This document shows, piece after piece, positions 1-4,715 of a stretch of 64,000 nt of DNA; within the stretch, counting starts at the first letter, position 1; every line of letters starts with the position of its first letter. Origin of the DNA: an uncultured Bacteroidota bacterium (GTDB taxonomy: Bacteria; Bacteroidota; Bacteroidia; Chitinophagales; Chitinophagaceae); contig CAIRYK010000037.1 of the NCBI GenBank assembly GCA_903882805.1, forward strand, positions 1-64,000, read 5' to 3'. The position numbers and the translations under genes are program-made. The notes below the pieces were generated by a model. The model was not told the origin of the DNA. It worked only from the letters and a program-made list of their open reading frames with translations, and did not search any database.

Positions 1-120
1 CGATGCTGTAGGCATCGAATGTCTATAGCGCACCAGCATTGATTAACACCGATGCTGTAGGCATCGAATGTTTATAACACACCTGTTACATTGCACCCCG
101 ATGCTGTAGGCATCGAATGT
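1..120 (+). repeat. Array of three identical 22-nt palindromic repeats (CGATGCTGTAGGCATCGAATGT) at exact 49-bp pitch; probably continues left of the window
   Basis: Identical copies at 1-22, 50-71 and 99-120 with 27-nt spacers. Core CGATGC-TGTAG-GCATCG forms a 6-bp stem with 5-nt loop. Confidence 0.95.
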
Positions 121-170
121 TCGTTACAATATCAGGTTAACCCTTAATTATAAGCGATCGCCTGCATCAA

Positions 171-635
171 TCATTCTTCGATCCATTCAAACAAATATTT
201 CTCATCAAATGGAACATCAAAAGCGTTCAAAAACGAAACATATTCGTCCTTAAAAGTCTTCTTTTTATGGTGTTCCTTTTGGTTCATTATGTAGGATATA
301 ACGTTGGTTAAATGCGAATGACTATAAGAAAAAGCACCATATCCTTCCTGCCAGGAAAACTTAAATTTTGTGAATTTTCTTTCGTTGACAAATTCATTTG
401 TAGATTTCTTTATCTCCCTAACTAAATCTGCAATGGAACAAGTTGGTCTCATTCCGATCAGAAAATGGATATGGTCTGATACACCGTTTATGGCCAGCAT
501 TTTTTGATCTTTCTTTTGAACAACTCCCGTTATGTATTTGTATAACTCTTCCTCCCAAGCAGCAGTTATCAGACTCTCGCGACCTTTTACGGCAAAGACT
601 ATTTGTATATAAATTTGAGAAAATGTATTGGGCAT
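171..635 (-). CDS. IS200/IS605-family Y1 (HUH) transposase, REP-associated (RAYT-like)
   Basis: HUH motif 'DHIHFLIG' and Y1 region 'YIMNQKEHHKKKTFKDEYVSFL', 154 aa; flanked on both sides by inverted palindromic repeat arrays. Confidence 0.9.
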   Translation of the reverse strand: MPNTFSQIYIQIVFAVKGRESLITAAWEEELYKYITGVVQKKDQKMLAINGVSDHIHFLIGMRPTCSIADLVREIKKSTNEFVNERKFTKFKFSWQEGYGAFSYSHSHLTNVISYIMNQKEHHKKKTFKDEYVSFLNAFDVPFDEKYLFEWIEE

Positions 636-724
636 AGTTTTTTGTTAAATGTACAATACGCGTGCATTCACAAATACAATCTACAACTACATTCTTGAAT
701 GTTTTTTGTGCGCACTTACTAAAA

Positions 725-892
725 ACATTCGATGCCTATAGCATCGGGAATTATTTATACAGGTTTACTATCAACATTCGATGCCTACAGCATCAAGAAT
801 TATTTATACAGGTTTACTATAAACATTCGATGCCTACAGCATCGCTGTAATTTATTCTTACATTCTATTAGCATTCGATACCTACGGCATCT
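725..892 (-). repeat. Array of four palindromic repeats, inverse orientation to the 1-120 array, ~49-bp pitch; last copy degenerate
   Basis: ACATTCGATGCCTATAGCATCG 725-746; ACATTCGATGCCTACAGCATCA 774-795; ACATTCGATGCCTACAGCATCG 823-844; degenerate GCATTCGATACCTACGGCATCT 871-892. Confidence 0.93.
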
Positions 893-3323: not shown

Positions 3324-4715
3324 ATGCAAAAACCATCTATACCACAAGGCACCCGCGATTTTTCACCGGCAGAGGTTCGTAAACGCCAGTATATACTGGG
3401 TACGTTACGTACAATATTTGAGCTTTATGGTTTTCAGCCGCTCGAAACTCCATCTATGGAATACCTTACTACCCTTACCGGCAAATATGGCGAGGAGGGC
3501 GACAGACTGATTTTTAAAATACTGAACAACGGACTTCACGAAAAAAACGAGGCCGGTAAAGCTAAGCTGAACGAAGAGTGGAATACCCTTTTAAGTAAAC
3601 CTTATTCTACACCAGCTGTTACAGAGCGTGCGTTGCGTTATGACCTTACCATACCCTTTGCCCGCTATGTGGTAATGCACCAAAACGATCTGGCATTCCC
3701 GTTTCGCAGGTACCAGATGCAGCCGGTATGGCGTGCTGACAGACCTCAAAAAGGCCGCTACCGCGAGTTTTGGCAGTGCGATGCCGATGTAGTGGGCAGT
3801 GTATCGCTCATCAACGAGGCCGAACTGTTGTGCATTTACCAAGGCGCATTTCAGCAACTGCTACTGCCGGTATGTATTAAGATAAACAGCCGTAAGCTAC
3901 TTGCTGCCCTATCGGAACTCTGTGGCATGCCCGAAAAAATGATGGATATCACCATTGCCCTCGATAAGCTGGATAAAATAGGCTGGGTAGGCGTTGCCAA
4001 CGAACTAAAGGAACGGGGCATAGCCGAAGAAGGTATATGGCAGATAGAACGGGTAATAAACGTAACCGGCAACAACGAAGAAAAACTGGCTGCCTATACC
4101 GATATTATGCAGCACAGTCCAAGCGGCATAGCCGGCATAAACGAAATAAGCAAAACACTGGCTTACTACCAGTCGCTGGCATCAGCAGAATGGCAGGGGC
4201 AAATAATGGTAGATATCAGCCTTGCGCGCGGCCTCAACTATTACACAGGCGTTATTGTTGAGGTGGTTTGCACCCATCCCAAAGTGAAGATGGGTAGCAT
4301 AGGCGGCGGCGGCCGATACGACGACCTAACAGGCCTTTTTGGCCTGAAGGGGCTATCGGGCGTAGGTGTGTCGTTTGGTATAGACCGTATATACGATGTT
4401 ATAGAAGAACTCAACCTTTTCCCCGAACAACTGGCAACAGGCAGCGTGGCCATGCTGGTCAATTTTGGCGGTGATAATGAACTATATGCACTGCAACTAC
4501 TCCGCCAGCTGCGCACGGCAGGCATAGCGGCGGAGCTGTTTCCGGATAGCGTGAAGTTTGACAAACAAATGAAATATGCCAACAAGCGCGGCTTCGCTTA
4601 TGTGTTGTTGCCCGGCGACGAGGAACGCGAAAAAGGGCTGATAAGCATGAAAAACTATGCCACCGGCGAACAAAAAATGGTGAGCATTGATGATTGTGTA
4701 ACTCAGCTAAAATAA
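3324..4715 (+). CDS. hisS: Histidyl-tRNA synthetase
   Basis: MQKPSIPQGTRDFSPAEV..., 'RALRYDLTIPFARYV', 'YYTGVIVEV', 'GSIGGGGRYDDL' class II motifs. Confidence 0.95.
   Translation: MQKPSIPQGTRDFSPAEVRKRQYILGTLRTIFELYGFQPLETPSMEYLTTLTGKYGEEGDRLIFKILNNGLHEKNEAGKAKLNEEWNTLLSKPYSTPAVTERALRYDLTIPFARYVVMHQNDLAFPFRRYQMQPVWRADRPQKGRYREFWQCDADVVGSVSLINEAELLCIYQGAFQQLLLPVCIKINSRKLLAALSELCGMPEKMMDITIALDKLDKIGWVGVANELKERGIAEEGIWQIERVINVTGNNEEKLAAYTDIMQHSPSGIAGINEISKTLAYYQSLASAEWQGQIMVDISLARGLNYYTGVIVEVVCTHPKVKMGSIGGGGRYDDLTGLFGLKGLSGVGVSFGIDRIYDVIEELNLFPEQLATGSVAMLVNFGGDNELYALQLLRQLRTAGIAAELFPDSVKFDKQMKYANKRGFAYVLLPGDEEREKGLISMKNYATGEQKMVSIDDCVTQLK

Follow-up and report, generated by a model that had tools for sequence, protein, structure and literature searches.

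Subclass 1.2 Y1 transposases and their phased hairpins: a putative family of miniature single-stranded DNA mobile elements in Bacteroidota

The stretch of DNA analysed here (64,000 nt, hereafter the window), which comes from an uncultured bacterium of the family Chitinophagaceae, opens with a Y1 transposase gene lying between two inverted arrays of short palindromes. We regard this locus as probably the autonomous form of a putative Bacteroidota family of miniature single-stranded DNA mobile elements moved by transposases of the TnpA_Y1 subclass 1.2, a reading built on comparative sequence evidence. The association between these enzymes and their hairpins is real and extends across the phylum, where the published classification, as far as the open-access literature goes, says that none exists. 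The dispersed hairpin units that accompany the genes are best read as putative REPIN- or MITE-like miniature single-strand mobile elements of the subclass 1.2 transposases.

The palindrome proper of the window is 17 nt long (stem CGATGC/GCATCG, loop TGTAG) and carries a 5-nt tail. Three mutually identical copies on the forward strand (1-22, 50-71 and 99-120) are found to the left of the gene, and four on the reverse strand (725-746, 774-795, 823-844 and 871-892, with 0, 1, 0 and 3 mismatches to the pattern) to its right, the last one being the diverged GATGCCGTAGGTATC. A preliminary description had reported these seven copies, with the tail AATGT facing the gene on both sides and a regular pitch, and our analysis agrees on each point: the chance expectation for the copies is 0 in 100 shuffles, and the pitch is 49 and 49 bp on the left and 49, 49 and 48 bp on the right. 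The copy at 1-22 is of the P1 type, with the tail CTATAG, and sits at the contig end; the copy closest to the gene on the left (99-120) occupies the P2 position and lacks the TATAG tail, and its counterpart closest on the right is 725-746. For P1 as single-stranded DNA, the folding energy is -5.9 kcal/mol (z=-7). Over about 121 bp, spacers included, each array repeats the other in inverted orientation: a blastn self-match pairs 1-121 with 844-724 at 77.7% identity, the left arm (1-121, forward) consisting of the left array and the right arm spanning 724-844 on the reverse strand. Contig C37 ends at base 1 of the window, so the assembly cuts the left array short. The last copies of another array, at the end of contig C64, match window positions 1-81 at 98.8%, and the C64 end and the window start may be neighbours or recent duplicates.

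The gene, tnpA (171-635, reverse strand), encodes a Y1/HUH transposase of 154 aa (PF01797 Y1_Tnp, E=2e-25), whose motifs DHIH, SWQ and YIMNQKEHH (Y---Q--HH) are those of TnpA_Y1 subclass 1.2 when compared with PMC6006769, and by these motifs it is a member of that subclass. Quentin et al. 2018 (PMC6006769) described subclass 1.2 as proteins of about 148 aa, mostly from Cyanobacteria and Bacteroidetes, with Y---Q--HH, DH[IV]H and WQ, scored as “REP: no”, generally devoid of IS200-type terminal structures and of IS properties, and present in low copy number. The Y---Q--HH signature is found in 78 of 80 homologous proteins, and a plasmid search for cyanobacterial members gave just four matches. 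The window protein passes the NCBIfam IS200/IS605 equivalog model NF033573 (65.5 bits, cut-off 55) and matches the ISHp608 TnpA structures weakly (E 6e-4). The earlier designation as a RAYT-type enzyme does not hold, given Y---Q--HH instead of Y---NP, a score far below the cut-off for REP_Tyr_transpos (25.8 against 80 bits) and palindromes without a 5′ GTAG.

The source genome encodes five Y1 genes, three of them full and subclass 1.2-like, the other two of these three being 39-49% identical to that of the window. The window tnpA is single-copy in its genome, unlike the near-identical multicopy elements by which IS200/IS605 insertion sequences are recognised, and it alone among the five has the window type of hairpin and tail within 700 bp. 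The Y1 genes of contigs C63 and C64 have other palindromes nearby, those on C63 with a related tail, AAAGGTTTGTAGCAA. On C64 (L036, 2278-3364), a second Y1 gene (YIANQHERH) lies between repeats AGCCCTGAAAGGGCG...GCGAGGGG, which form a separate palindrome family.

We fetched, with their flanks, the 80 homologs closest to the window protein among public genomes; almost all are from Bacteroidota, and their flanks repeat the anatomy of the window locus with stems that differ. A scan for hairpins with a loop of 3, at least 6 pairs and the tail ATGTTTATAG with up to 2 mismatches gave 329 matches in the 80 loci and 6 in shuffled sequence. Such a hairpin with its tail lies within 500 bp of tnpA in 73 of the 80 loci, a figure that is partly self-selected because the first loci had already been seen when the tail motif was chosen; for the same reason, the weight of the argument is carried by the decay with distance and by an independent genome sample. 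The density of hairpins falls about 20-fold, from 2.0-2.9 per kb near tnpA to 0.12 per kb at a distance of 2-3 kb, and among the 7 loci without a hairpin several have their tnpA at a contig end. Mapped on the tree, the presence of the tail is not monophyletic (10 changes) and is much clustered (mean of 19.4 changes when shuffled, 0 of 500 shuffles as low). Hairpins on either side face inward toward tnpA in 9 of the 80 loci; in most of the rest the gene stands just beside complete units. As judged from these flanks, subclass 1.2 in the clade of the window has a hairpin partner in nearly every locus, which corrects the published “no REP” and leaves membership in the subclass intact.

The independent sample consisted of 248 Bacteroidota genomes drawn evenly, with TnpA matches accepted at E<=1e-20. 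A covariance model of the unit, R1, matched in 29 of them and TnpA in 100, and 26 of the 29 had both (Fisher p=7e-9). By a reading of coordinates in this sample, a unit lies within 500 bp of a TnpA match in 13 genomes (G071, G076, G091, G093, G112, G133, G171, G175, G182, G183, G196, G221 and G295). Thus, the link between transposase and palindromes first proposed for the window holds phylum-wide, in the 80 loci as in the 248 genomes. Units are also found on many contigs of two named isolates, Aequorivita capsosiphonis and Pedobacter chitinilyticus. Within the genus of the window, no unit was found in five genomes that lack any TnpA match, and those with a close TnpA (G000, which is the source genome, G008, G014, G015 and G031) have 14-72 unit matches, both strands counted. 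In three genomes (G026, G019 and G030) units occur but no close TnpA does; the many units of G026 and G019 are either orphan repeats, like orphan REPs, or a product of gaps in the metagenome assemblies. One genome (G024) has a TnpA of 61% identity and no unit. Absences of this kind are weak evidence because such assemblies break at arrays.

The unit itself has a fixed geometry. A next hairpin follows 45-55 nt downstream of 286 of the 356 tail hairpins, with a peak at 51 and a second one at 102, and the full unit, H1-51-H2-51-H3′ (about 120 bp), occurs 169 times with symmetric 51/51 spacing, in 43 loci. Across an alignment of 40 sequences the spacers are unconserved, and covariation is seen in the three stems, where both sides have changed in 13 of 19 pairs and 96.4% of cells are paired, a value as high being reached in 0 of 500 shuffles. 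Conservation ends at the feet of the outer hairpins, and the flanks are unconserved. Even inside a single unit, H1, H2 and H3 have different stems, so that the stem sequence is no specific key. Two causes had been suggested for the strict pitch of the window, amplification of a 49-bp unit and a phasing constraint, and both find support. Recent amplification is indicated, for the array at the C64 end and for part of the right array of the window, by spacers that are nearly identical; a spacing of about 51 nt kept where spacers are unconserved argues for the constraint.

On the tail-bearing strand, the ratio of GNA to TNC loops is 28:0 for H1 and 28:0 for H3, and 10:9 for H2, and model R1 matches the same places on both strands about equally well. 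Polar ends, a non-polar centre and these matches indicate together that the unit is strand-symmetric, such that either strand could be processed. G.T wobble pairs could be thought to discriminate the strands (33 GT to 1 AC in the source genome), a discrimination that we do not claim because phylum-wide it is weak (44 to 31). On one strand the conserved 10-mer follows the hairpin at its 3′ side (ATGTTTATAG), and on the other it precedes it at the 5′ side (CTATAAACAT). By analogy with the guides of IS608 and the GTAG of REPs, the 5′ arrangement, CTATAAACAT followed by the hairpin, would be the likelier substrate, which would reverse the “AATGT guide tail” put forward previously. A reading as GTAG-tagged REPs was discarded, as GTAG occurs only inside the loop of the window variant, with GAA or GGA in relatives. 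A look for cleavage or guide tetranucleotides showed no sequence conservation beyond the hairpin feet; CTATAAACAT precedes the hairpin, at its 5′ side, on one of the strands.

A pattern search of the source genome gave 100 copies of the palindrome, and 0 in the control. They are arranged in three ways: direct pairs of about 71 bp, in which P1 with the tail TTATAGCAA is followed 47-50 bp on by P2; mirrored P1-P2-P2′-P1′ units, four times on contig C84 (the fourth incomplete) and on C36; and long direct arrays, on C2, on C25 and at the C64 end. The blast matches of dispersed pairs typically span about 70-75 bp and end near the hairpin feet. The copies are almost all intergenic: 90 of 92 lie outside ORFs of at least 120 aa, although such ORFs make up 70% of the same regions, and several lie between convergent genes. 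With about 100 further copies dispersed in the genome, the locus is not a self-contained unit, and the mirrored units on C84 and C36 contradict, genome-wide, the claim that the arrangement is phased rather than BIME-like. Genome-wide arrays unlinked to this or related transposases had been named as an outcome that would speak against the link; it is half borne out in this genome, where most copies are far from a tnpA, whereas related transposases are strongly linked to such repeats. In this 95-contig assembly, arrays stand at the ends of C2, C12, C13, C25, C31, C37, C47, C64 and C65, and since contigs end inside arrays, copy numbers, array lengths and tnpA counts are minimum values. On C2 (L038), a segment of about 870 bp (665-1526 and 3527-4397) is duplicated at 72.7% together with a palindrome array, and two contig ends (L043, 37-370, on C65; L048, 1-249, on C31) carry 156-bp tandem units with a compensatory variant of the P1 stem, GACGC/GCGTC.

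Evidence for insertion comes from the nuoJ-nuoK junction. In two species, tnpA and units lie between these genes (L056 and L058), in one of them (L058) as P1-P2-tnpA-P2′-P1′, and the same gap measures 0 to about 95 nt in the source genome and in G008, G011, G019 and G038. These occupied and unoccupied junctions tell us that insertion has happened; its exact borders at nuoJ-nuoK are not readable, and no precise empty site or target sequence was mapped. A search for the empty site of another locus (L049) found no syntenic junction, the flanks being on different contigs in relatives. The window locus is an array-expanded form of the autonomous layout of L058, with the same array polarity on each side. 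Overall, two positions of tnpA recur: beside units and, for the window and L058, flanked by the P2 half on one side and the P2′ half on the other. Non-autonomous units take the form H1-51-H2-51-H3′ through most of the phylum and, in the genus of the window, that of either P1-P2 (about 71 bp) or mirrored P1-P2-P2′-P1′.

A plausible mechanism can be proposed from these features. TnpA would recognise the terminal hairpins, formed by a stem-loop plus ATGTTTATAG (on the other strand, CTATAAACAT 5′ of the hairpin), each paired with a second hairpin about 50 nt away. Binding would occur on single-stranded, lagging-strand DNA, the tyrosine would cut near the hairpin feet, and the unit would be excised and then reinserted. 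The distance of about 51 nt could be set by the enzyme bridging two hairpins. IS608 TnpA and TnpA_REP bind hairpins in single-stranded DNA (PMC8266576), and by analogy with both of them the subclass 1.2 TnpA most likely binds its hairpins in the same state and moves the unit. Arrays may grow by tandem duplication of the 49-bp unit or by repeated insertion beside resident copies; for some arrays, duplication of the 49-bp unit is shown by near-identical spacers. More tentatively, subclass 1.2 might constitute an active, phylum-wide system of single-strand transposition with strand-symmetric elements, in which the non-polar central hairpin would partner either polar end at about 51 nt, and either strand would be processed. 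Classical IS200/IS605 elements are strand-specific.

A host-serving role has been proposed for RAYT and REP in proteobacteria, and a similar case could be made for a domesticated system, with an immobile transposase and with palindromes kept as terminators, as stabilisers of mRNA 3′ ends between convergent genes or as nucleoid sites, the two being linked by slow co-evolution. The low number of tnpA copies and their divergence within the source genome, in line with the low copy number of the subclass in Quentin 2018, fit such a scenario, as do intergenic copies, several of them between convergent genes. We nevertheless find it unlikely, since sharp-edged families are dispersed over at least five sites (C84 four times, C36), a terminator needs no strand-symmetric unit, and arrays that were amplified recently, repeats left as orphans and units present in some lineages of the genus but absent from others look like mobility. 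An ordinary IS200/IS605 insertion sequence with unusual left and right ends, to which the best family match, the weak resemblance to ISHp608 TnpA and the same-strand position of P1 and P2, reminiscent of LE and RE hairpins, could point, is quite improbable for a locus that has inverted arrays as ends, the subclass 1.2 motif and no tnpB, in a genome without any identical multicopy element bearing tnpA.

The left array has the look of repeats and spacers, and its hairpin could form in RNA, as expected for a transcribed structured RNA (a CRISPR-like array, a riboswitch or an attenuator); this is highly improbable, because an Rfam search of the arrays gave no match, both strands are about equally good, the loop polarity is opposed at the two ends and the companion gene codes for an HUH transposase. 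Minisatellites born from replication slippage of a 49-bp unit, with the transposase as a bystander or a chance insertion, would account for the near-identical spacers of the C64-end array and part of the right array. They would not account for the phylum-wide association with a transposase clade, the 51-nt spacing conserved between covarying stems with unconserved spacers, or the existence of solitary pairs and mirrored units, so that this explanation is largely refuted and retains a minimal probability.

How does the putative element family compare with known systems? RAYTs and REPs show GTAG or GTGG 0-2 nt 5′ of the palindrome. With the REPINs and BIMEs of RAYTs (TnpA_REP, subclasses 2.2/2.5), the window system shares short intergenic palindromes, an adjoining Y1 gene and inverted palindrome pairs, which occur as dispersed units both on C84 and C36 (P1-P2-P2′-P1′) and phylum-wide (H1..H3′); it differs in lacking GTAG 5′ of the stem and Y---NP, and in having a fixed pitch of about 51 nt, a symmetric unit of three hairpins and a conserved 10-nt tail motif. 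IS200/IS605 elements (IS608, ISDra2) and their non-autonomous derivatives offer the closest protein class, with a Y1 HUH domain and tyrosine, hairpins at the ends and, in LE plus RE, a parallel to the direct P1-P2 pair; here, in turn, the ends are mirror images, and there is no multicopy IS, no tnpB and no recognisable cleavage tetranucleotide. The system thus works like REP/REPIN with RAYT, or like a minimal IS200, but lacks the defining RAYT and REP features tested. Subclass 1.2 as published (PMC6006769) agrees in DHIH, WQ, Y---Q--HH, a length of about 150 aa and its occurrence in Bacteroidetes, and differs in the absence of REPs and, generally, of IS200-type ends, where the clade of the window has its hairpins. 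TIRYTs, or TIRtrons (PMC3733652), also have a Y1 gene between inverted repeats; they are mostly of subclass 2.1, with HTH tails and GGGGWSAS TIRs, a motif not seen in the array arms of the window, where the inverted repeats are hairpin arrays and the protein has the subclass 1.2 motif. The BrickBuilt MITE of P. gingivalis (PMC4596501), likewise a Bacteroidota MITE with an inner tandem repeat, was set aside, as its 23-nt repeat is unrelated in sequence, its TIRs are of the IS5-family type and it has no link to Y1. RepRanger (PMC12306157) counted REPs in Bacteroidota, with no link to RAYTs or transposases shown.

The only survey describing subclass 1.2 that we found in the open-access literature assigned it no DNA partner or function. 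A covarying hairpin at fixed spacing is now a candidate substrate, which makes binding, cleavage and mobility directly testable, and would explain a class of intergenic palindromes in Bacteroidota together with the assembly breaks they cause. The REP/RAYT concept would extend to a second protein branch that follows other rules: no GTAG, phased and strand-symmetric.

Further palindromes were observed near more distant Y1 genes. One perfect palindrome of 42 nt lies about 248 bp from a divergent Y1 transposase gene (L164), and five copies of ACCCTGCCATGCGGCAGGGT at a pitch of about 59 bp stand beside another Y---Q--HH transposase (L156, G052:C32). Finally, TTTGCTCCGATGGAGCAAG palindromes stand on both sides of a distant subclass 1.2 tnpA (L147, G037:C218), and on one of these sides they keep a strict 54-bp pitch; phased arrays recur there with other sequences.
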